Shown in pieces: positions 4,070-60,729 of a stretch of DNA of 64,000 nt. The stretch lies in the NCBI GenBank assembly GCA_021775255.1, contig JAJFIA010000009.1, positions 1 to 64,000 of the forward strand. Direction: 5' to 3'. Each line of letters starts with the position of its first letter. The first letter of the stretch is position 1. The DNA comes from Roseovarius sp. GTDB lineage: Bacteria; Pseudomonadota; Alphaproteobacteria; Rhodobacterales; Rhodobacteraceae. Below the pieces are notes generated by a model. The model made no database searches. It was not told where the DNA came from and worked only from the letters and a program-made list of their open reading frames with translations. Made by a program: the position numbers and the translations under genes.

Positions 4070-4914
4070 TCCCGCCGTGCCGTACACAGGTTCAGCATCG
4101 CGGGAATGCGTATCCCCTTCGGCGTGTCATAGGCTGCCAGCGCCTCGGCGGTGGCCGCTTCAACCGCCCGCGCATCCGCTTCCGAGCCATCCCTGGCCTG
4201 CAATACCCGCGCCGCCATGCCCACCCGGCACGCAAGCCCTGCCGCGCCCTCCGGCCCGCCCGGCGGGGTCAGATCAACCTGCACCTTTGATACCGAAATA
4301 TCCTGCCATCCGGCCCGGTCCAGCAAGTCACAGACATATCCCCGGTCGGCAAATGCCATCGGGTTCGGCCCCTGCTGTTCAACCGCCGGCATATCGCCCA
4401 CCCGTGCCACCGCCGCCAGCCTTGGGATCTCGAACCACGGGTTTTCCGCCAGATCAGCCCAGGCCATGAACGCCATCCTGCCCCCCGGCCTGACCGCCCG
4501 CGCGATATTGCCAAACGCCGCCACCGGACCCGCAAAAAACATCACCCCAAAGCGCGAGATCACCGCGTCATAAGCCGCCGCCTCAAATCCATGCACCTGC
4601 GCGTCAACCCGTTTGAATTCGATATTCGTGAGGCCCGCATCCGCCGCGCGCACCATCGCCCGGCCCAGCAGCAGCTCCGATATATCAGCCCCAAACACCC
4701 GGCCCTTTGGCCCCACCAGCCTCGCCGCCGTCATCGTGCTCATCCCGGTGCCGCAGCCGATATCCAATACCGCTTCACCGGGCTTCAGCCCCGCCGCCCC
4801 CAGCGTCCCCGCCAAAACCGGCTCCAGCGTGGCATCCAGCCCATCCTGGAACTCGATCCATTTCTGCGCCGCGCCCCAATACTCTGCCTGATCCTTGTTT
4901 GGATTATCCGTCAT
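4066..4914 (-). CDS. Class I SAM-dependent methyltransferase
   Basis: A 282-aa methyltransferase with motif I VLDIGCGTGMSTMTAARL, motif II GADISELLL, YDAVISRFGVMFFAGP and RAVRPGGRMAFMAWAD. It is similar in architecture to the protein at 2567-3373, particularly in the RFGVMFF segment, but clearly diverged from it. It is the last gene of a minus-strand run (aminopeptidase, NlpC/P60, ureohydrolase, methyltransferase), 11 bp after the ureohydrolase stop, so it is probably cotranscribed. The substrate is not identifiable from sequence. Confidence 0.85.
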   Translation of the reverse strand: MTDNPNKDQAEYWGAAQKWIEFQDGLDATLEPVLAGTLGAAGLKPGEAVLDIGCGTGMSTMTAARLVGPKGRVFGADISELLLGRAMVRAADAGLTNIEFKRVDAQVHGFEAAAYDAVISRFGVMFFAGPVAAFGNIARAVRPGGRMAFMAWADLAENPWFEIPRLAAVARVGDMPAVEQQGPNPMAFADRGYVCDLLDRAGWQDISVSKVQVDLTPPGGPEGAAGLACRVGMAARVLQARDGSEADARAVEAATAEALAAYDTPKGIRIPAMLNLCTARRD

Positions 4915-4925
4915 TCCCGCTCCCC

Positions 4926-5888
4926 TTAATTAACCTGCCCTGCCATCACACAGAGCATCTCAAACATGATCGACACGCCCAGAAAGGCCGTGCCGCCCGC
5001 CATGTCAAACGGTGGTGACACCTCAACCATATCCGCGCCGATGATATTCAGCCCCTCCAGCTCACGGCACACCTGCACCGCCTGATACGAGTTCGGCCCG
5101 CCCACTTCCGGCGTGCCCGTGCCCGGCGCGAATGTGGGATCAACAAAATCAATGTCATAGCTCACATAGGTTTTCGCAGTGCCGGCAATCTCCCGCGCCT
5201 CGGCCATCACATCCTCAACGCCGCGCGCATGAAACTCTTCAATCAATATCAGGCGGATGCCATTGGCGGCCGCAAAATCACGATCCTCGGTGTCATACAT
5301 GGTGCCGCGCAGCCCGATTTGCACAATGCGTTTGGGGTCGAGCAGGCCCTCCTCCACCGCCCGGCGAAAGGGTGTGCCATGGGTGTACATGGTGCCACCA
5401 AAATAGGAATGAAACAGATCGGTATGGCTGTCAAAATGCACCATCCCCATGGCGCCGTGCACCTTGGCCAAAGACCGCAGAACCGGCAGCGAAGTCAGGT
5501 GATCCCCGCCCGCAGTCAGCGGCACAATCCCCGCCGCCAGAACCTGATCATAAAACGCCGTGATCCGCTCCATACTGTCCATGATATCCGCCGGATTCGG
5601 CCCCACATCGCCCAGATCAGCACAGTTTGCCGCCTCATAGGGCCGCATCCCCGAGGTGGCATGCTGTGCCCGCATCATGGTAGACGAATCGCGAAGCTGC
5701 CGCGGCCCATGGCGCGGGCCGGGGCGGTTGGTGGTGCCGGAATCCCACGGCACGCCAATCAGGCCGATCTGCACGTCCTTGATCCGATCATGATCCAACG
5801 GCACATAGGGCAGCCGCATGAAGGTCGGAATCCCGGCAAACCGCGGAAACTGAAAGCCCGAAACCGGGTGAAAAAAACTGTCGCTCAT
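4926..5888 (-). CDS. speB: Agmatinase-family ureohydrolase
   Basis: A 320-aa ureohydrolase (arginase/agmatinase superfamily) that hydrolyses a guanidino group to urea with a binuclear manganese centre. All metal-binding motifs are present: GGDH, HFDSHTD, and SYDIDFVDPTFAPGTGTPE. Length matches agmatinases (about 305-325 aa). The DSHTD variant of the usual DAHTD and the extended N terminus also occur in guanidinobutyrase-type enzymes, so agmatine is only the default substrate. Its start codon overlaps the stop of the upstream NlpC/P60 gene, which implies translational coupling. Confidence 0.85.
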   Translation of the reverse strand: MSDSFFHPVSGFQFPRFAGIPTFMRLPYVPLDHDRIKDVQIGLIGVPWDSGTTNRPGPRHGPRQLRDSSTMMRAQHATSGMRPYEAANCADLGDVGPNPADIMDSMERITAFYDQVLAAGIVPLTAGGDHLTSLPVLRSLAKVHGAMGMVHFDSHTDLFHSYFGGTMYTHGTPFRRAVEEGLLDPKRIVQIGLRGTMYDTEDRDFAAANGIRLILIEEFHARGVEDVMAEAREIAGTAKTYVSYDIDFVDPTFAPGTGTPEVGGPNSYQAVQVCRELEGLNIIGADMVEVSPPFDMAGGTAFLGVSIMFEMLCVMAGQVN

Positions 5889-50845: not shown

Positions 50846-51382
50846 TCAGGTGGCAGGACCGTTACAGGTGCTTTGACCATAGTTATTGCTGTCATTGGTT
50901 TCTGTGGTGTCGTCGTTATGATCGGCGGCGATCAGAAATTCGACACTGCTATGATATTGCGATGCGCCCCAGGCCCCGGCGGGGATGGTTTTGCTGCGCA
51001 ATGTGCTTTGATTGGGGGCAAGCTGTGGCACGGTGATGGTGCTGTTATAGCCGTCATTGAAGCCGATATAGACATCCGATGAGGCGGCAATACCATTGCC
51101 AACATTCTTGACGTAGAAGTAAATCTTCTGGTTGCCCCCATTCCACGGGCCGCAAAAGCCTGAATTGGGCAGGCCGGAATTGCCACTGTGCCACGGCAGG
51201 ATCACCAGATCAGCCTTGGCAACACCATGCCCGCCCTTTTGCGGTGCGGTTCTGATCCCCAGATCCGTTGCCCCATCCGAGCGTTTCAGGCGCAGGCTAC
51301 CGGCATCCGCAGAGGCGGCACCAACTATCATGGCAGAAATCAAAGCGATCAGCTTGATGTTATTTGTCATTGAATTTGTCAT
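50846..51382 (-). CDS. Secreted CARDB-like protein
   Basis: A 178-aa protein with a signal peptide (IKLIALISAMIVGAASADA). The mature part resembles a CARDB (cell-adhesion-related) beta-sandwich: YFYVKNVGNGIAASSDVYIG, TITVPQLAPNQST, HSSVEFLIAADHNDDTTETN. Three Cys are present. ATG 51382 has AGAGGA eight bases upstream. It lies downstream of the subtilase gene on the same strand, separated by inverted repeat copy C, and may or may not belong to that locus. Confidence 0.6.
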   Translation of the reverse strand: MTNSMTNNIKLIALISAMIVGAASADAGSLRLKRSDGATDLGIRTAPQKGGHGVAKADLVILPWHSGNSGLPNSGFCGPWNGGNQKIYFYVKNVGNGIAASSDVYIGFNDGYNSTITVPQLAPNQSTLRSKTIPAGAWGASQYHSSVEFLIAADHNDDTTETNDSNNYGQSTCNGPAT

Positions 51383-51486
51383 TGCATCATTCCTCTTAAT
51401 CATCCGTTATAAATATTGGTCGTACCGGGATGAGGAATGGTTCAAAGAAAGTTGAAAATAAAATGTAGGGCTGTCATTTTCTATAA

Positions 51487-51595: not shown

Positions 51596-53014
51596 TCAGC
51601 AGCCGCCGGATTGCACCAGGCCGAACCCATATTTCGTATCGCGCCCGGCCGGGCCAAGATCGCGCACACCCCGGCGCAGGCTGCTGCGGGCTTTGGTCAG
51701 CGACAGCCCGCCACGCGCGGCCGTGCGCGCCAGAAGTGCCGTCACGATGGGGGCCGCATATGACGTGCCCGAAAGATAGCCGCCACCACCACCCTTGGCG
51801 GCATAAAGATCAACACCGGGGGCGGCAAATTCGATATGTGCGCCGGAATTGGCTTTGCTGTAAACCCGCCCGGCGGCATCCACCGCCGTCACCGCGATAG
51901 TATCGGGCGATCCGGCCGGATAGCGCAGTTTTGACGTGCCTTCATTGCCCGCCGCCGCCACCAGGATCATGCCTTTGGCCCGCGCCCGCGTCATCAGGCC
52001 GGCAAAGGCCTGATTGCTGCTGCCGGACATCGAAAGATTAACAATCTGCACGCTTTGGCCCAACAACCAGTCAATCCCGACGGCCACATTCTCAAGCCGC
52101 GCGCCGTTGCGGCCCTTGATATTGGCAAAGGCTTCGGCGGCATAGATTTTGGCGCCAATGGCAAAACCCGCAAGCGAACCGCCTGCGGGCTGTCCGGCGA
52201 TGATACCGGCAACTGCGGTGCCGTGATCGGTGCGCGCGGGGCGCTCCCCCTCGGCCAGAACCGAGGCCCTCGAAACGGCAACCCCGGCCAGAGCCGGGTG
52301 GGATGTGTTGACCGGGCCGTCGATCTGCCCCACCCGCACGGCGCGGCGCAATCTGCACGCCCCGCCCGGATCATCGCCGATCATCGCAGCGGCATAGATC
52401 CGGGGGCCCGCCGCCAGCCCATAGATGTGATGCTGATCAAGCACCGCGCCGGGGGCGGAATTGCCCAACAGGCTGCGGGCGCGCTCAAGGCTCAGATTGC
52501 CAGGAAAGCTGAAGAGCAACAGGGTGCGGTCCAACTGCCGCAAGGTGCGGGTTCTGAGCAGGGTGGCCCCCTGCGCCTGAAGCGCGTTGCGCGCGGCCTG
52601 CGCCTGACCGGTTGGGGCAAACACCATATATTCAGGCGATCCATCGGGCGCAGGCACCACATCACGCGCCGCGCGGGTCCGGTTGGGGGCCGCCGTGGTG
52701 CAGATGGTGATCTTGCCCAAAGGCCGGGCAATGGTGCCGGCAGTGGCCCAGCTCACCACATAGGTATCGCCCAGTTTCAGGCCGCGGCGTGGCAGGGTGA
52801 CACGGATCTGCCGGCTTGACCAGCTTTTCACCGTGAGGTTCTCAGTGCGCGCGCCCGATTTGGCCAGGATTTCGCCGGTGGGCTGGCGCGTGAAACTACG
52901 GCCAGAGATGGTCAGCGATGCGCCGGGCGAGACACATCCCGTGGCCGCAATCCGAAAATCTGCCAGGGCAAGACCGGGCCACATCATGATCAAAATCATC
53001 AAATAATAACGCAT
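51596..53014 (-). CDS. Secreted subtilase (S8) with N-terminal IPT/TIG-like domain
   Basis: A 472-aa protein. Signal peptide (MRYYLMILIMMWPGLALA); residues ~20-95 resemble an IPT/TIG beta-sandwich (SPGASLTISGRSFTRQPTG); residues ~125-205 look like an S8 propeptide; residues ~225-470 are the catalytic domain with Asp232 (VGQIDGP), His264 (TDHGTAVAG), Asn357 (AAAGNEG) and Ser418 (SGTSYAAP). It is an active-looking serine peptidase for the periplasm or outside. It begins 3 bp after the anti-sigma stop and is the fifth gene of the run from 57199. Confidence 0.92.
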   Translation of the reverse strand: MRYYLMILIMMWPGLALADFRIAATGCVSPGASLTISGRSFTRQPTGEILAKSGARTENLTVKSWSSRQIRVTLPRRGLKLGDTYVVSWATAGTIARPLGKITICTTAAPNRTRAARDVVPAPDGSPEYMVFAPTGQAQAARNALQAQGATLLRTRTLRQLDRTLLLFSFPGNLSLERARSLLGNSAPGAVLDQHHIYGLAAGPRIYAAAMIGDDPGGACRLRRAVRVGQIDGPVNTSHPALAGVAVSRASVLAEGERPARTDHGTAVAGIIAGQPAGGSLAGFAIGAKIYAAEAFANIKGRNGARLENVAVGIDWLLGQSVQIVNLSMSGSSNQAFAGLMTRARAKGMILVAAAGNEGTSKLRYPAGSPDTIAVTAVDAAGRVYSKANSGAHIEFAAPGVDLYAAKGGGGGYLSGTSYAAPIVTALLARTAARGGLSLTKARSSLRRGVRDLGPAGRDTKYGFGLVQSGGC

Positions 53015-53017
53015 GGC

Positions 53018-53635
53018 TCACTCTCCCATTTCTGCGCTGTCAACCAATGCAGAATTGGCATTCAACTGGCTCAGGGCGCTGGCCCGTGATTCCGCATCAC
53101 GGGCGGCCAGCGTATATAGGCCAAGCGCCGAAGGGCCGCCGACGATGCTCAGGTCAAGCCGCAACAGCAGGCGGCGAATATCGGCTTCGCTGGCATCCTC
53201 GGCAAAAGCCACGATCAGGGTTGGGCCATCGGCCTGAACTCCGCCGCCCCCGGCCAGATCAATGATCTCATCCGGGGCCATGACCACATAGGCGCTTTGT
53301 ACGGCAAACAACCCGATGGCAATCACCGCCGCAATCTTCCAGATATTTGACTTTGGTTGCGCCGCCGGGGCCTGCCGCGCGCCTTCCCGGTCAATATCGC
53401 GCATCAGCCGCGCCAATGCGAATTCTGAGGAGGTGGATTGCACAGGTTCGGCCAGTATTTCAGCCTGCATTTCATCGCGGATGCTGCGCAGCGCCTCAAG
53501 CTCGGCCATGAGCTGCGGATCGGCAGCCACGGCCGCTTGCATAGCCTCGCGTTCCTGCCCCTCCAGCGTATCATTGGCCAAGAACACCATCAGTGCTTCC
53601 AGCTCATCGCGGGGAATATCCATCGGGTTGTTCAT
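53018..53635 (-). CDS. Transmembrane anti-sigma factor with subtilase-propeptide-like periplasmic domain
   Basis: A 205-aa protein. The N-terminal ~90 residues (cytosolic) have an acidic helical region (RDELEALMVFLANDTLEGQE) and no zinc ligands, unlike zinc anti-sigma factors. One membrane helix (IWKIAAVIAIGLFAVQSAYV, ~97-118) precedes a periplasmic domain (~135-205) reading TLIVAFAEDASEADIRRLLL and IVGGPSALGLYTLAA, the pattern of fervidolysin-type/I9 subtilase propeptides. It overlaps the ECF sigma gene by 4 bases and the subtilase gene follows after 3 bp. Anti-sigma activity is inferred from position and layout. Confidence 0.8.
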   Translation of the reverse strand: MNNPMDIPRDELEALMVFLANDTLEGQEREAMQAAVAADPQLMAELEALRSIRDEMQAEILAEPVQSTSSEFALARLMRDIDREGARQAPAAQPKSNIWKIAAVIAIGLFAVQSAYVVMAPDEIIDLAGGGGVQADGPTLIVAFAEDASEADIRRLLLRLDLSIVGGPSALGLYTLAARDAESRASALSQLNANSALVDSAEMGE

Positions 53636-54186
53636 GACGTGGCCCTTTCCATCCGGCCAGAAAGACAGCGCAGCAGCAGCTTCTTGGCGTGAAAAATCCG
53701 TGTCTTAATGGTGCCCTCGGGCACATCTGCAACCTTGGAAATTTCGCCGTAACTCATGTCTTCATAAAACGCGAGCTCAATCGCCGAGCGGTGATCCGGC
53801 TTTAGCTGATCCATGCAGAACTTAAGGTGCTCGGCTTCCTGACTGGCCGCAAGGCACGCATTGGCATCGGGGCTGTCATCGGTCAGCTCGGGCATTTCAT
53901 CCGTAACGGTGAGCCGGGAATATTTGCGAAAATGATCCATTGTCTTCCTGTATGCTATACCAAAAACCCAAGTTTTGACCTTGGACCGGCCCTCGAACTT
54001 ACCCGCCGAGCGCCAGACATCCATAAACACTTCATGAAGTATGTCGTTGGCTTCGACCGGATCGTTCAATTTTTTTGCTATAAATCTGAAAACAGGCTTT
54101 TCAAGCTGGCGGTAAAACTCGGCGAATGCGGCTTTGTCGCCCCCGGCCATATAGGTCAAAAGCTGCTCTAAAGATGCATCACCCAT
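53632..54186 (-). CDS. ECF-type RNA polymerase sigma factor
   Basis: A 184-aa sigma-70 group 4 protein. Region 2 contains FYRQLEKPVFRFIAKKLND, ILHEVFMDVWRSAGKFEGRS and VKTWVFGIAYRKTMDHFRK; region 4 contains KPDHRSAIELAFYEDMSYGE and VPEGTIKTRIFHAKKLL. It overlaps the downstream anti-sigma gene by 4 bases, the usual coupling. No extra C-terminal domain is present. Its target promoters are unknown; the divergent region before 57199 is a candidate. Confidence 0.92.
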   Translation of the reverse strand: MGDASLEQLLTYMAGGDKAAFAEFYRQLEKPVFRFIAKKLNDPVEANDILHEVFMDVWRSAGKFEGRSKVKTWVFGIAYRKTMDHFRKYSRLTVTDEMPELTDDSPDANACLAASQEAEHLKFCMDQLKPDHRSAIELAFYEDMSYGEISKVADVPEGTIKTRIFHAKKLLLRCLSGRMERATS

Positions 54187-54213: not shown

Positions 54214-55302
54214 TCAGAAGCCGCCACCTGCGCGGCGAATGGGCGAGGTTGCAAGCTTTTGGCCATTTCCATCATAGGCCGTCACCCGCCAGTAAACCAG
54301 CCTGTCCCCTTGCAACCGGGCCAGTGTTATACCGCGCAATCTGGCGCTGTTGGATTTTACATCCATCGCCGCCAGTCTGTCCCCGGCCACGCCGCCCGCC
54401 CCCGCGCTCAGAAATTCCAGCCGATAGCTTTTGGCACCCGCAACACTGCGCCATTCAAACCGGCTTGCAGCATTCAGCCGCCCTCCGGCCTGTGGGGCCA
54501 GCAAATCAAGCTGCGCCACATCGCCATTAAGCAAAACCGAATAGGTCAGGACCGGAAAGGCCTCGGTCTGACCGCGCGGCACATTGCCGTCGGGGATGAA
54601 CCGAAGCCGGTAAATGCCCACGCGGTCGGTTGGCAGTTGCGGGCTTTCAAAGATGGTTTTGCGTGATCCCGCCAACACCTGCCGCACCCGCCGGATCGGG
54701 CGAAAGCCCGCGCCCTGGGTGGCCGAGGGGCCGGAAATTTCCCAACTGCCCCGGAACGTGCCATGGCCATTGGTTGTGAGGATTGCCCGCGCCGTAAGCG
54801 CCTGATTCTGGCCCACGGTCCTGAACAGGCTGTCATCATCAAACCGCAAAGCAAAATTGCGAAATGACAATTCGCCCCCAGAGATGATCTGCAAGGCAAC
54901 CGTGCTTGTGGCGGTGCCCAGGGTGGTGTTGTCGGCAAATGTGCGGGCATAGGTCGTGGTGCCCACCTGCGATATGCGCCTGGCGGTGGTGCGATCCACC
55001 CTTAAGCGTTCATTCAGTGTTACCGTCACAATGCCGGTGCCGGGATGGCGGAAGGATTTGGAAATCATCCCCCCCGATATACCGCCAATGCCCAGCGCGC
55101 CCGAAGGTGAGCTGACAAGGATGGTTGTGGGCGTGCCGCTTGTCAGGCTGACATCCACCTGCCAGCGGATTGAAATCACGCTCTGGCCCGCGTCGTTGAT
55201 CCGGAACGAGGCGGGATTGCTGCTGGCCGATGTCACGGCCTGCGCCACGCCCGCAAATCCAAGGAGCGTCAGAACCGTAAGAATTTTAACAAGGCGTGTC
55301 AT
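54214..55302 (-). CDS. Secreted multi-domain beta-sandwich protein, function unknown
   Basis: A 362-aa protein with a signal peptide (LVKILTVLTLLGFAGVAQA). The first ~150 residues are a beta-rich domain (SFRINDAGQSVISIRWQVDV, ISGGMISKSFRHPGTGIVT); the last ~95 look like a fibronectin-III-type module (RFEWRSVAGAKSYRLEFL, VYWRVTAYDGNGQKLA). No Cys in the mature part. ATG 55302 has AGAGG seven bases upstream. It stands 10 bp after the barrel gene and 27 bp before the ECF gene, so it is likely an external partner of that locus. Confidence 0.7.
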   Translation of the reverse strand: MTRLVKILTVLTLLGFAGVAQAVTSASSNPASFRINDAGQSVISIRWQVDVSLTSGTPTTILVSSPSGALGIGGISGGMISKSFRHPGTGIVTVTLNERLRVDRTTARRISQVGTTTYARTFADNTTLGTATSTVALQIISGGELSFRNFALRFDDDSLFRTVGQNQALTARAILTTNGHGTFRGSWEISGPSATQGAGFRPIRRVRQVLAGSRKTIFESPQLPTDRVGIYRLRFIPDGNVPRGQTEAFPVLTYSVLLNGDVAQLDLLAPQAGGRLNAASRFEWRSVAGAKSYRLEFLSAGAGGVAGDRLAAMDVKSNSARLRGITLARLQGDRLVYWRVTAYDGNGQKLATSPIRRAGGGF

Positions 55303-55312
55303 GGGGTGCCTC

Positions 55313-57199
55313 TCACTGAAAAATACTGGTGTTGGCCCGCAACAGCAGGCCAAAGATTGTGTCATGCCCGGCGCCGCTTTCGTTCGCATAGGCACCATCA
55401 TTATACGCCGCACTCAGCACCAGCTCTGCCGAGGGGTTGAATCGCCAGGTCAGGTCGCTTGAAAATGCCCCACCATTTTCGGCAAACGGCTCGCCGGTAT
55501 CGGTATAATTGGCGTTTATCGAAAACAGCCACTTATCCGGCACGATAGCATATTGAGCCCCAAACCCGACATCATATTTCCACCATTCATCTGTGGATGC
55601 CTCTTCATATGTGATCTCGCCGCTGCCATTCAAGATCAGGCGATCATTTGGCTCATAATCGAAATTCGCCCGCAGGTTATGCAAAATTGTATCCTGATTG
55701 AAGGCGGATATGTCATTGCTGTCGATAAAATCATAATCCAGCGACCACGACCATGTATCGGTATATTTATCCATCCCCAGATAATAATTCATGTCGAGAT
55801 AATCGGCCGAAGCCTGCGCGGCGGGGGATTTCAGCCGGTCCTGCCAATCCACAATCGCCCCGAAGCGCAGGGTGACGGTATCCCAGAACCCCTGCCCCTG
55901 AACATCGTAATAGCCATTGACTGACATCCGTGAAATCCGGTCGGTCACATCGGTTGCCGGGCCGCCTTCATTGGTTTTCTGGGTATCGGCAGTAAGATTG
56001 AGGCTCAGCTTGTCAGCGGTATAATCCGCGGTGAACAAAAACGTCTCAGCTCCGACATTCTGTTCCGGGTTCGCCAGGCTGTAATAGTTGTCATCGACAA
56101 CCTCATAGCCAACACCAACCGTCAGCGTCCGGCTGCCGCCATCATGGCCAAACACATCAAATTCAACGCTTGATAGCACGGCATGGCCGGTTTGTGACTG
56201 AAACGCAACGCCGCCGCCATCCTCATCAAATTCGGTGCGGCCATAAACCCCGCCATAACGCAGCCTGCCCGCCATGAGCGAGCCCTCAAGCCCGAAGGAT
56301 ACCCCATCACCAGAGCCGGAAATCAGCCCGCCATTGGGGATGCCCTGACCATCATAAACCTGCGCCGAAAGCCGCAGGTCATTGCCCGAAAACGGCTGCC
56401 AGGCAAGGGTGGCCCCCGCCATCCTGTCATTTTCATGTTGCAGCCCGGATATATTATCAATCCCCAAAGCATCGGCCGAGCGGGTGCTGAATGCCCCAAA
56501 CCTGAACCGGTCATCGGGGGTGTTGAACAAAAATGAAACCCCCCGCCTGTTCACATTGCTGATCAGCGCCCGGTCATAATTCAGCGATTGATGCCCCAAT
56601 CGACCGGTGAAATCGACCACCCCGCCACTGCGTTTATATTCCAGAAAATAGGTGCCGATATTGACCGGCTTGCCATTGATCTGATCCTCACTGCGCGAGG
56701 TGGCGATATAATCAACATTGCCGGTCAGGGAATTATCATCGGTTGTCAGGTCTGCCGTGCCGGTGCTGTTTACGATCTCCTCGGCGTCGCCGTTCACCGT
56801 GCGCCCGCCAAGCTGATGCGTGGCCTCCACCCCGACATGCGCACCACTGCCGCCCGCGCCCTGATCTGAGCCGGTAAAGCTATAGCTTGCAATCACCTCA
56901 TAATCGTCGCCCTGAAACAGATAAACGGTGATCCGGTGCGCTCCGCCCCCAAGCGGCGCGCCGGGGCTGAGTACAAGCTGACCATTCACAATCGAGGCAA
57001 ATTCGGTGACGTCAATATCATCAATTTCAATCGCAACGTCACCGGAAAGCCGGGATACATCTATCGGCAGAACCAGCGCACTTCCCGGCTCAAGCTGCCC
57101 CAGATCCTGCGCCATGGCCTGCCCGGTCAGCCAGATCGACAGGCCCAGCCCAAACAGGGTTTTGCCCAGTTTACCCGAAAATCTTATCGCCAAAATCAT
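55313..57199 (-). CDS. Predicted outer-membrane beta-barrel protein with N-terminal domain
   Basis: A 628-aa protein. A signal peptide (GLGLSIWLTGQAMA) is followed by a ~90-residue beta domain (LEPGSALVLPIDVSRLSGDV, GGGAHRITVYLFQGDD), then about 500 residues of alternating amphipathic strands with many aromatic/Gly repeats (DLRLSAQVYDGQ, GRLRYGGVYGRTEF, TLTVGVGYEVVDDNYY, DTVTLRFGAIVDWQD). This looks like a transmembrane barrel, but it ends SIFQ rather than with the terminal Phe/Trp usual for BAM substrates. Not recognised as a named family. First gene of the run down to the subtilase. Confidence 0.7.
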   Translation of the reverse strand: MILAIRFSGKLGKTLFGLGLSIWLTGQAMAQDLGQLEPGSALVLPIDVSRLSGDVAIEIDDIDVTEFASIVNGQLVLSPGAPLGGGAHRITVYLFQGDDYEVIASYSFTGSDQGAGGSGAHVGVEATHQLGGRTVNGDAEEIVNSTGTADLTTDDNSLTGNVDYIATSRSEDQINGKPVNIGTYFLEYKRSGGVVDFTGRLGHQSLNYDRALISNVNRRGVSFLFNTPDDRFRFGAFSTRSADALGIDNISGLQHENDRMAGATLAWQPFSGNDLRLSAQVYDGQGIPNGGLISGSGDGVSFGLEGSLMAGRLRYGGVYGRTEFDEDGGGVAFQSQTGHAVLSSVEFDVFGHDGGSRTLTVGVGYEVVDDNYYSLANPEQNVGAETFLFTADYTADKLSLNLTADTQKTNEGGPATDVTDRISRMSVNGYYDVQGQGFWDTVTLRFGAIVDWQDRLKSPAAQASADYLDMNYYLGMDKYTDTWSWSLDYDFIDSNDISAFNQDTILHNLRANFDYEPNDRLILNGSGEITYEEASTDEWWKYDVGFGAQYAIVPDKWLFSINANYTDTGEPFAENGGAFSSDLTWRFNPSAELVLSAAYNDGAYANESGAGHDTIFGLLLRANTSIFQ

Positions 57200-57422: not shown

Positions 57423-58562
57423 ATGGAGATGACGGCATCACAAGCATTGGCATTTGCAAATTCCGGGGGTGATGATCTGCGGGCGTTGATGGCGCGGGCC
57501 ACGGCGCGGCGGCGTATGCACTGGGGCGATGTGATCACCTATTCGCGCAAGGTGTTTGTGCCCCTCACCAACATGTGCCGCGATACCTGCAGCTATTGCA
57601 GCTTTGTGGCGCATCCCGACAGCCCGCGCGCCAATATCATGACCCCGGATCAGGTGCTGGCCACCGCCCGCAAGGGGCAGGCGCAGGGCTGCAAAGAGCT
57701 TCTGTTCAGCCTCGGAGAACGGCCCGAGCAGCGCTATGACAAAGCCCGCGAGGCGCTGGCGCGGCTGGGCTACAAGAGCACCAATGATTACCTGCGCGAT
57801 ATGTGCGCTTTGGTGCTGCGCGAAACCAGCCTGTTGCCGCATGTGAATGCCGGCACGTTGCGCACGGACGAAATCGATATGCTGCGGCCGGTCTCGGCCT
57901 CGATGGGGATGATGCTTGAAACCGTCTCGCGCCGCCTGAACCGCAAAGGCATGCCGCATCACGCCTGCCCCGACAAGGTGCCCGCCCAACGGCTGCGCAC
58001 GCTGGACCGCGCAGGCACGCGCGGCGTGCCCTTCACCACCGGGCTGTTGATCGGCATTGGCGAGACATGGGCCGAGCGCGTCGAAAGCCTTGCTGCGATC
58101 AACGCATCACACAAGCGCCATGGCCATATTCAGGAGGTGATCATCCAGAATTTCCAGCAAAAGCCGGGAATTGTGATGGCGGATCACCCCGAGCCAAGCC
58201 TGAATGACATGCTGCGCACCCTTGCGGTGGCACGTCTGATGCTGGCCCCTGAGATCAGCCTGCAGGCACCCCCCAACCTGTCATCGCGGCATATCGAATA
58301 CCTTAAAGCGGGGATGAACGACTGGGGCGGAATTTCCCCGGTGACAATAGATTTCATCAACCCCGATCACGACTGGCCCGAGATCACCACGCTCGCCGCC
58401 GCGACCCGCGCGGCGGGCTGTGAACTGGCCGAGCGGCTGACAATCTACCCGCGTTACCTGCACCGTGCGGATACATTCCTTGATCCCGCGTTGCGCGCCC
58501 GGATCACCGCCATGTCACGGCCCGATGGCCTGGCACGCGCGCAATCATTGGAGGTCTCATGA
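57423..58562 (+). CDS. cofG: FO synthase subunit CofG (radical SAM)
   Basis: A 379-aa radical SAM enzyme. The 4Fe-4S cluster ligands are Cys52, Cys56 and Cys59 in MCRDTCSYCSF. The family blocks KELLFSLGERPEQRY, TNDYLRDMC and PHVNAGTLRTDE match CofG. With CofH it builds the deazaflavin FO from tyrosine and the ribityl-diaminouracil of riboflavin synthesis. CofG and CofH are separate proteins here, unlike the fused FbiC of actinobacteria. First gene of a cluster in which the next four junctions overlap by 4 bases. Confidence 0.95.
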   Translation: MEMTASQALAFANSGGDDLRALMARATARRRMHWGDVITYSRKVFVPLTNMCRDTCSYCSFVAHPDSPRANIMTPDQVLATARKGQAQGCKELLFSLGERPEQRYDKAREALARLGYKSTNDYLRDMCALVLRETSLLPHVNAGTLRTDEIDMLRPVSASMGMMLETVSRRLNRKGMPHHACPDKVPAQRLRTLDRAGTRGVPFTTGLLIGIGETWAERVESLAAINASHKRHGHIQEVIIQNFQQKPGIVMADHPEPSLNDMLRTLAVARLMLAPEISLQAPPNLSSRHIEYLKAGMNDWGGISPVTIDFINPDHDWPEITTLAAATRAAGCELAERLTIYPRYLHRADTFLDPALRARITAMSRPDGLARAQSLEVS

Positions 58563-59803
58563 ACATCCAAACCCCCAAAACCCCCGTCACCCGCATATTG
58601 GACCGCTTTGCCGCTGGTCGGGAAATCAGCATGGCCGAAGGCGAGGTTCTGTTCGCCGCCGAAGGCACGGATATTACCGCCATCACCACCATGGCCGATC
58701 ACCTGCGCCATAAAGTCAACGGCGATCAGGTGGGATTTGTTGTCAATCGCAACATCAACTTCACCAATATCTGCTATATGGGCTGCAAATTCTGCGGCTT
58801 TGCCAAGCGGCGCGAGGACGCGGGCGCGGAATGGCTCACGCTCGACACCATCGTCGCCCGCGCGGTTGAGGCACAAAATCGCGGCGCCACCGAGGTTTGC
58901 ATCCAGGGCGGCATTCACCCCAAAATGCCCGGCACCTATTACCGCGACATCGTTCTGGCGATCAAAGCCGAGCTGCCGGACATGCATATCCATGCGTTTT
59001 CGCCTTTTGAGATCTGGTATGGTGCTGCCAAAACCAAAATGTCCTATGCCGATTTCATCATGGATCTCAGGGAATGCGGCCTTGGCTCGATGCCCGGCAC
59101 GGCGGCGGAAATTCTTGATACTGAAGTGCGCAAAGAGCTGACCAAAGACAAGCTGAGCGCCGCCAAATGGGTGGAAATCATCCGTGCCGCGCATCATGCA
59201 GGTGTGCGCACCACCGCCACCATCATGTATGGCCATATCGACGGCCCGAAACACTGGGCCGCGCATATTGTCCTTCTGCGCGACATCCAGAAGGAAACCC
59301 ACGGCTTTACCGAGCTTGTCCCGCTCAGTTTCGTGCATTCCGACAGCCCGCTTTATCTGGCAAATCCGGGGTCTGTGCGCCCCGGCCCGACGGATGCGGA
59401 AGTGGACAAGATGCACGCCGTCTCGCGCCTCATGCTGCGCGGGGCTATCGACAATATCCAGACATCATGGACCAAACTCGGCCCTGAGCGGGCACAGAAA
59501 TTACTGTGCGCCGGGGTGAATGATCTGGGGGGCACCTTGATGAATGAAAGCATCAGCCGCGCCGCCGGATCGGAATTTGGCCAGGAAGTCACGGCCTATG
59601 AAATGGTGCAGATCATCCGCGCTGCGGGCCGCATCCCGGTGCAGCGCAATACCGGCTATGATGTGTTGGAAGTGTTCGACAATCACGATCCCGCGCGGCA
59701 AGAGCCATTGGTAGAGCGCGGCGGCCACACGCCGATTGATTTTCTCGGTGCAGACCTTCCGGATTTCCTGAAAGAGCCAGAATTACCGAAAGAGGCTGTG
59801 TGA
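58559..59803 (+). CDS. cofH: FO synthase subunit CofH (radical SAM)
   Basis: A 414-aa radical SAM protein with Cys72, Cys76 and Cys79 in NICYMGCKFCGF, and CofH blocks EVCIQGGIHPKMPGTYY, HIHAFSPFEI, SMPGTAAEILDTEVR and TTATIMYGHID. It performs the tyrosine-dependent half of FO assembly. Start overlaps cofG stop by 4 bases and its stop overlaps cofD. Length normal. Confidence 0.95.
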   Translation: MNIQTPKTPVTRILDRFAAGREISMAEGEVLFAAEGTDITAITTMADHLRHKVNGDQVGFVVNRNINFTNICYMGCKFCGFAKRREDAGAEWLTLDTIVARAVEAQNRGATEVCIQGGIHPKMPGTYYRDIVLAIKAELPDMHIHAFSPFEIWYGAAKTKMSYADFIMDLRECGLGSMPGTAAEILDTEVRKELTKDKLSAAKWVEIIRAAHHAGVRTTATIMYGHIDGPKHWAAHIVLLRDIQKETHGFTELVPLSFVHSDSPLYLANPGSVRPGPTDAEVDKMHAVSRLMLRGAIDNIQTSWTKLGPERAQKLLCAGVNDLGGTLMNESISRAAGSEFGQEVTAYEMVQIIRAAGRIPVQRNTGYDVLEVFDNHDPARQEPLVERGGHTPIDFLGADLPDFLKEPELPKEAV

Positions 59804-60729
59804 TGCTCAAGGTTACCCTTCTTGCCGGTGGCGTCGGCGGGGCCAAAATGGCCGAGGGTTTTGACGGGCTGGAAGGCGTTGAATTGTCGGTCATCGGCAA
59901 TATCGCCGATGATGCCGAGTTTCACGGGCTTTGGGTCTCGCCCGATATTGATACGTTAACCTATTCGCTGGCAAACCGCATCGACCGGGCGCAGGGATGG
60001 GGGGTCGCGGACGAATCCCACCGCGCATTGAGCGTGTTGAATGAGTTGGGTGATGATACGTGGATGACGCTTGGCGATCGTGATTTCGGCCTTCATATCT
60101 ACCGCACGAATGCGCTGCGGCAAGGCCAGAGCCGCTCGGAAATTGCCGCCCATGTGGCGCGGGTTTTCGGCGTGACCTCGCAGATCATCCTGCCCACGGA
60201 TGACGTGGTGCAAACCCGCGTGCGGGTGTCCTCGGGCTGGCTTACCTTTCAGGAATATTTCGTGCGCGAGCAGTGCAAACCCGAGGTTATGGCGCTTGAA
60301 TTTGAGGGCATTGGGGCCGCCCGCCCCACACCTGCCGCCCTTGAGGCCATCAACAGTGCCGATCTGATTGTCATCGCGCCAAGCAACCCTTTAGTGTCGA
60401 TTGATCCGATCCTGAACATCCCCGGCATTCGCGCGGCAATCGGCGCGGCGAAAGCCCGCAAAATTGCCGTAAGCCCTTTGATTGACGGCAAAACCATCAA
60501 AGGCCCCGCCGCCGGGATGATGGCGTCTTTGGGCCTGCGCGCGGATGCTTACGGCATAGCCGGGCATTATCAGGGGCTGATCGATACGCTGGTGATCGAC
60601 CACGCCGACAGCGCCCTGAGCAACCAGATCAATGCGCTGAACTTGGCCGCAATATGCGAGCATACCCTGATGCAGACCCGCGCCGATAAAATCGCGCTGG
60701 CCCAGGCCATCATCGGGGGGCTGCCATGA
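59800..60729 (+). CDS. cofD: 2-phospho-L-lactate transferase CofD
   Basis: A 309-aa CofD/FbiA-type transferase: VTLLAGGVGGAKMAEG at the start, SVIGNIADDAEFHGLWVSPD (the GNxxDD motif), SPLIDGKTIKGPAA and an acidic cluster near LVIDHADSA. It transfers the phospho-acid moiety onto FO to make F420-0 or its variant. Overlaps cofH and cofC by 4 bases each. Confidence 0.95.
   Translation: MMLKVTLLAGGVGGAKMAEGFDGLEGVELSVIGNIADDAEFHGLWVSPDIDTLTYSLANRIDRAQGWGVADESHRALSVLNELGDDTWMTLGDRDFGLHIYRTNALRQGQSRSEIAAHVARVFGVTSQIILPTDDVVQTRVRVSSGWLTFQEYFVREQCKPEVMALEFEGIGAARPTPAALEAINSADLIVIAPSNPLVSIDPILNIPGIRAAIGAAKARKIAVSPLIDGKTIKGPAAGMMASLGLRADAYGIAGHYQGLIDTLVIDHADSALSNQINALNLAAICEHTLMQTRADKIALAQAIIGGLP

Follow-up and report, generated by a model that had tools for sequence, protein, structure and literature searches.

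A subtilase-propeptide-like domain on a membrane anti-sigma factor encoded next to a subtilase gene in Roseovarius

The window, that is, the whole stretch of 64,000 nucleotides analysed here, covers positions 1 to 64,000 of the forward strand of contig JAJFIA010000009.1 from Roseovarius sp. (assembly GCA_021775255.1). It contains a gene cluster on the minus strand, transcribed in the order 628-amino-acid protein, protein with an Ig-like match, extracytoplasmic function (ECF) sigma factor, anti-sigma factor and S8 subtilase. Ten bases separate the first two genes and 27 the second from the sigma gene; the sigma and anti-sigma genes overlap by 4 bases, and 3 bases lie before the subtilase gene. 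The sigma factor (53632..54186, 184 amino acids) has regions 2 and 4 (Pfam Sigma70_r2, E 2.1e-13; Sigma70_r4_2, E 1.7e-12). The membrane anti-sigma factor (53018..53635, 205 amino acids) follows it directly across the 4-base overlap, and the gene of the secreted subtilase (51596..53014, 472 amino acids) begins after the 3-base gap. The window genome has one copy of the anti-sigma factor and only two S8 genes. We found that this anti-sigma factor ends in a domain resembling a subtilase propeptide, and there is good support for a conserved pairing of subtilases with anti-sigma factors of this type. The gene switch probably reads the neighbouring protease directly.

The anti-sigma factor is composed of a cytoplasmic anti-sigma domain (residues 1-96, 53348..53635), a transmembrane segment at about residues 100-119 (53279..53338), where the Kyte-Doolittle hydropathy reaches its maximum (mean 2.2 at 101-119), a Gly-rich periplasmic linker recognised in the sequence (residues 120-136, 53228..53278), which is a possible cleavage region, and a propeptide-like domain of the I9/PF22148 type (residues 137-205, 53021..53227). 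In the whole-protein Pfam scan the sole listed match was RseA_N (E 0.084, residues 29-98). Residues 11-115 matched the anti-sigma models NF010501 (1.3e-6) and NF052375 (1.6e-4), both under cut-off, and zf-HC2 was matched at E<=1 by 14 of 32 aligned anti-sigma sequences. With an N-terminal anti-sigma domain, one membrane segment and an adjoining ECF sigma gene, the protein has the make-up of a class I membrane anti-sigma factor. It is predicted to bind and inhibit its cognate sigma factor, for which their correlated evolution (partial r 0.37 given the subtilase) is indirect evidence.

The first-pass annotation had likened the roughly 70 C-terminal residues of this protein to the propeptides of fervidolysin/I9-type subtilases, and both the predicted fold and the profile comparisons agree with it. 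The segment 53018-53233 corresponds to residues 135-205 plus the stop codon and contains the strings quoted in that annotation, SEADIRRLLL among them. The AlphaFold2 (AF2) model of residues 137-205 had a predicted local distance difference test score (pLDDT) of 96.8 and a predicted template modelling score (pTM) of 0.82. Its elements, a strand (3-8), a helix (14-23), two strands (27-30 and 37-41), a helix (45-57) and a last strand (62-67), form a beta-alpha-beta-beta-alpha-beta, ferredoxin-like fold, which structure comparison also finds in subtilase propeptides. The five highest query template modelling (TM) scores within the Foldseek top 50 all belonged to subtilase propeptides or their partners (2z56_B, 0.70; 1scj_B, 0.68; 3cnq_P, 0.68; 3wqb_B, 0.65; 3whi_A, 0.65). 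However, the fold is common, and we rejected it as sufficient proof of propeptide kinship by itself because unrelated ferredoxin-like folds tie structurally with propeptides.

In sequence, the domain alone matched PF22148 (fervidolysin prodomain) at E 0.022 with 15.5 bits, under the curated cut-off of 21; the Pfam scan of the full-length protein gave no propeptide-family match, and the PF22148 search of the window genome returned nothing at E<=0.001. Fifteen of 47 aligned domain sequences matched PF22148 at E<=1 (best 1.5e-5), other families being matched by one member each, and the related anti-sigma factor of genome G008 exceeded the cut-off with 22.8 bits. The profile of the domain aligned over nearly its full length with a profile of ten PF22148 propeptides (score 25.9, probability 56%), against a maximum of 15.3 among 200 column shuffles. 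The only sequence match in the PDB at E<=10 was POIA1 (1v5i_B, E 1.6). In 200 genomes of the phylum there were 12 PF22148 matches over the cut-off, nine of them in frames with an S8 match; the other three were the G008 anti-sigma factor, which lies beside a subtilase, a long frame in which no S8 stretch was recognised and a frame of 233 amino acids. The propeptide likeness of the domain exceeds chance.

The domain does not stand in cis ahead of an S8 catalytic domain but at the C-terminal end of the anti-sigma factor, and the S8 protease is encoded by the next gene. Among the hits at E<=0.01 in 385 genomes of the class, none was a subtilase with this very domain as its propeptide; the four that fell outside anti-sigma factors (L186-L189) look like chance, and a frame of 658 amino acids in G029 had no S8 match. 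A close kinship with the partner subtilase's own propeptide was unsupported (hhalign probability 1.6%), each of the two matching PF22148 propeptides and not one another. An acidic residue at column 63 of the domain is conserved in 40 of the 47 rows, and an acidic residue has a helix-capping role in subtilisin propeptides. The domain may bind and inhibit a subtilase, a possibility on which correlated evolution bears indirectly.

The partner has the Asp-His-Ser triad, the oxyanion Asn and the own propeptide of an S8 subtilase with a prodomain, and the secreted protease with an intact triad that had been annotated after the anti-sigma gene is thus confirmed. It matched PF00082 (Peptidase_S8) over residues 225-465 at E 5.6e-32, and D232/H264/S418 are invariant in 36 aligned sequences, with N357 in the oxyanion position. 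A signal peptide at about residues 1-18 (52961..53014) is inferred from hydropathy, with a hydrophobic stretch at 5-23. The prodomain (residues 122-203, 52406..52651) was recognised by AF2, Foldseek and a profile match (score 25.6 against the PF22148 propeptide profile), and PF00082 marks the catalytic domain (residues 206-472, 51599..52399). In the AF2 model (pLDDT 90.6) the prodomain comprises strands 127-134, 151-158, 163-169, 191-194 and 196-200 and helices 135-146 and 176-186, with a low-confidence loop after them (203-206), and the top 18 Foldseek rows for the whole model were subtilase proforms. The subtilase also has cysteines at 27, 105, 220 and 472, of which C472 is invariant in the 36 sequences and C220 almost so; this suggests a disulfide between the last residue of the mature enzyme and its N-terminal part.

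The pairing was maintained in other genomes. After loci with identical C-termini were merged, a subtilase lay within 1.5 kb of 107 of 114 distinct domain-bearing anti-sigma genes, so that homologues rarely lack the linked S8 gene for which a survey had been suggested. Ninety-four of the 107 have sigma, anti-sigma and S8 genes colinear, eight have an antiparallel anti-sigma gene between the others, two have S8 first and three are arranged otherwise. The pair occurs in at least three gene orders and is found in Alpha- and Gammaproteobacteria as well as Acidobacteriota. Eight further genes beyond the 114 include five with S8, although for L208 and L211, which are among the five, the domain profile itself was below threshold. 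By comparison, none of 20 domain-less anti-sigma factors, the top-ranking matches of the same query that do not extend into the domain, has S8 within about 3 kb. These neighbourhood counts are not independent events because the loci were sampled by similarity and share ancestry.

The individual sets gave a similar picture. Among 56 relatives on GTDB contigs, sigma, anti-sigma and subtilase genes were found together in 51 by phmmer and in one more, L056, by tblastn; of the remaining four, L034 and L055 are cut off by a contig edge and L052 and L054 have no subtilase. In 398 genomes of the phylum, 63 matched a broad anti-sigma profile, many only in the anti-sigma region, and 29 of the 30 loci returned had S8. 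Seven other phylum hits reached the domain, with S8 in G102, G217, G287 and both copies of G380 and none in G225 and G322. Thirty-two of 292 genomes of the order matched the anti-sigma factor at E<=1e-10; S8 was present in 29 of the 30 loci returned, the remaining locus being at a contig edge, and three further hits had S8 in G415 and G437 but not beside the second copy in G436. The 385 genomes of the class gave 17 true domain hits, 16 of them with S8.

G225 carries two domain-bearing anti-sigma-like frames on opposite strands, about 0.6 kb apart (L212:3448-3951 and 4531-5268), with no subtilase in the 7.5 kb examined. The second anti-sigma copy of G962 (L203:4908-5672) has no sigma or subtilase hit in the surrounding 3.2 kb (L172).

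The presence of the two genes is also associated at the level of whole genomes. For the 292 genomes of the order, an S8 gene of this family was called at E<=1e-40. Of the 32 genomes that carry the anti-sigma factor (E<=1e-10), 31 had such a gene, the exception being G590, where the contig ends, versus 26 of the 260 that lack the anti-sigma factor. We covered 22 of these 26 genomes. All of the 20 examined first had an ECF sigma hit near the S8 gene and none had a hit to the propeptide-like domain; of the other two, G598 had a sigma hit near S8 and G502 did not. Thirteen of the 20 had an anti-sigma-like protein of another kind, the outer part of which mostly carries an LCREFE/VACR-like motif and, in the four that were scanned, had no Pfam name. 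This LCREFE type may represent a second, different type of sensor with the same protease family.

Correlated evolution was measured in 42 dereplicated loci from L001-L050, all with alphaproteobacterial labels except the gammaproteobacterial L047. Distances of the propeptide-like domain and the S8 catalytic domain were correlated given the sigma factor (partial r 0.35, 0 of 500 permutations; 0.36 without L047), which is comparable to the expected pairs: 0.37 for the anti-sigma region and sigma factor given the catalytic domain, and 0.35 for the S8 propeptide and catalytic domain in cis. The domain followed neither the sigma factor (0.02), nor its own anti-sigma region (-0.03), nor the S8 propeptide (0.05), and the link between the anti-sigma region and the catalytic domain was weaker (0.18, 7 of 500). 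Mere proximity is a poor explanation because the domain does not follow the S8 propeptide, which lies between it and the catalytic domain on the DNA.

Our preferred reading, in which we have slightly less than even confidence, is that the anti-sigma factor ends in a propeptide-type docking module acting in trans, and that the neighbouring subtilase, once docked, cuts the linker and releases the sigma factor. The subtilase would leave the cytoplasm as a zymogen that carries its own propeptide. When mature and free in the periplasm, it would dock on the anti-sigma domain through its open propeptide-binding surface; this docking is likely, and it would place the active site near the Gly-rich linker, which would be cut there (site-1 cleavage). 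Intramembrane proteolysis of the usual kind would then remove the membrane stump, and the released ECF sigma factor would transcribe its own cluster. The organization of the cluster, the fold and profile relationship, the near-obligate subtilase neighbour, its absence beside domain-less anti-sigma factors and the correlated evolution among close loci are observations; we infer the physical docking, the cut, its position and the regulon.

Several findings weigh against a simple bait. The subtilase already carries a propeptide fold (residues 127-200), and therefore two domains of propeptide type are encoded in the cluster, one in cis on the protease and the other on the anti-sigma factor. In the 47 rows the anti-sigma chain stops 0-5 residues past column 67 of the 69-residue domain, a few members being longer. 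In structural alignments the window domain ends opposite residue 72 of the 77 in the subtilisin BPN' prosegment and residue 71 of the 76 in POIA1, about five residues short. In proforms, the C-terminal tail of the propeptide sits in the active site (PMC10580911). Most members should therefore not plug the active site like a classical propeptide; the most economical view is that the domain docks on the propeptide-binding surface and leaves the active site free for cutting the linker. The propeptide mimic proposed in the first-pass annotation is thus retained in its fold and its linked subtilase but not, in most members, as a classical plug. Sister subtilases in the same order (L118-L137, L140-L142) adjoin ECF pairs with domain-less anti-sigma factors, so the link between ECF factors and subtilases is wider than the propeptide-type sensor. 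Two domain-bearing copies have a caspase gene (Peptidase_C14) nearby instead of a subtilase, adjacent in G246 (L138:6953-8400) and about 2 kb away in G322 (L204:3153-4901); this means that the domain can serve another protease or that its use has changed in those copies. In 48 more divergent loci the domain and catalytic domain were correlated at 0.11 only (4 of 200 permutations; domain and sigma factor, 0.38), and at 0.06 (36 of 200) when corrected also for the anti-sigma region and S8 propeptide. Pairs in this set with a sigma distance <0.8 gave 0.32 (3 of 200; domain and sigma factor, 0.34), and all 89 loci together gave 0.09 (15 of 200; domain and sigma factor, 0.47). Partial Mantel tests are liberal. 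Correlated evolution is thus support among loci close to that of the window, not proof, and is weak beyond them.

Some of these findings would be expected if the sigma factor simply had the subtilase among its targets and something else were sensed by the domain, whose ferredoxin-like fold is common. The other sensor domains beside sister subtilases, the two caspase replacements and the weak correlation among divergent loci all favour this explanation. However, the domain predicts the subtilase (107/114 vs 0/20), the anti-sigma and subtilase pair persists through rearrangement, the domain and the catalytic domain show correlated evolution where loci are close to that of the window, and the Pfam and profile matches point to propeptides; we therefore regard it as quite unlikely. 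It is also rather unlikely, in our view, that the domain is a receptor and sink that holds surplus mature subtilase in the periplasm and so protects the cell, the bound state being the signal and another protease making the first cut. RsiV offers a precedent, being an anti-sigma factor that binds an enzyme and needs that binding for its site-1 cut (PMC5014341). The match to POIA1, a propeptide-like inhibitor solved with subtilisin, also fits, but the product-like tail of the proforms is short or missing in the 47 rows and the ligand would be self-made, unlike lysozyme. The structural match to the Aeromonas ASP chaperone ORF2 (3wqb_B) could indicate an intermolecular folding helper of the subtilase, with no signalling role. 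This we consider highly improbable, since the domain is anchored on an anti-sigma factor and the subtilase already has its own propeptide.

A more general form of docking followed by cleavage may be suggested, albeit tentatively and with more doubt than belief: a widespread module in which a pseudo-propeptide on the anti-sigma factor would read the maturation of the subtilase, the subtilase itself would be the site-1 protease, and the fold of a cis inhibitor would have become a trans receptor. The eukaryotic site-1 protease is a subtilase, and the proposed module would be its bacterial counterpart.

The gene at 54214..55302, 27 bases upstream of the sigma gene, encodes a secreted protein whose resemblance to an Ig-like family is weak (PF25788, E 0.013, under cut-off and on a stretch two residues longer; no match at E<=0.01 when rescanned) and is probably in the same transcription unit as the sigma gene. 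It has homologues in L001-L004 and the gammaproteobacterial L047 and L051. The upstream end of the cluster (55313..57199) encodes the 628-amino-acid protein, of outer-membrane type as judged from its sequence, for which family searches gave no match and homologues were found in seven of 57 compared loci (L001-L004, L015, L036, L047). Homologues of both genes precede the sigma gene in L001-L004 and L047. A CARDB gene (50846-51403) was rejected as a cluster member since it has no homologue in the 57 loci. A shared ECF promoter of the pattern GGAA[CT]-N14-19-CGT[ACT] occurred in one of 51 upstream stretches versus 1.98 expected from shuffles, which says nothing for or against such a promoter. Elsewhere in the window, which its relatives indicate to be alphaproteobacterial, cofG, cofH and cofD of coenzyme F420 lie in a row (57423-60729; TIGR03550, TIGR03551 and TIGR01819 over cut-off).

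To our knowledge, the signal sensed by most ECF anti-sigma factors is unknown. In this case, the domain on the outer side has a partner that can be recognised as a protease and that has been retained in different classes despite gene rearrangement, and the signal is therefore directly testable with two purified proteins. If our preferred reading is true, a protease-receptor principle would be added to ECF signalling, and subtilase propeptides would be shown to have been recruited as sensors. The first-pass annotation knew of no such anti-sigma factor, and we likewise found no description of an anti-sigma factor with a propeptide-type sensor among the papers listed by full-text searches of open-access literature, which were judged mostly by titles and abstract openings; the main text of a paper on ECF and class I anti-sigma factors does not contain subtilase, propeptide or peptidase S8 (PMC7406223).

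Among known systems, the PF22148/I9 prodomains resemble the window domain in fold, in the near full-length profile alignment and in having an S8 protease as partner, but they stand in cis on the protease, whereas the window domain ends a membrane anti-sigma factor, has a short tail and is under the Pfam cut-off. POIA1 and yeast IB2, free-standing propeptide-like inhibitors of a soluble fungal type, come without a sigma factor, and POIA1 is about five residues longer than the window model. The Aeromonas sobria ASP chaperone ORF2 is a separate chain serving a serine protease and is soluble, without a membrane or sigma link. RsiV senses lysozyme through a domain unrelated to the propeptide-like domain, and its site-1 cut is made by signal peptidase. 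It is likewise an anti-sigma factor (for SigV) with an enzyme-binding outer domain, which occupies the active-site pocket of the enzyme and inhibits it (PMC5014341); binding by the window domain is presumed. The ligand of RsiV is lysozyme, while the presumed ligand here is the cell's own protease, encoded in the same gene cluster. The nearest statement that we found concerns ECF54 sigma factors, which have conserved subtilase, carboxypeptidase and CHAT neighbours and for which control via proteolysis without an anti-sigma factor was proposed (PMC8999054). The window cluster shares with ECF54 the subtilase neighbour and differs from it in having an anti-sigma factor.
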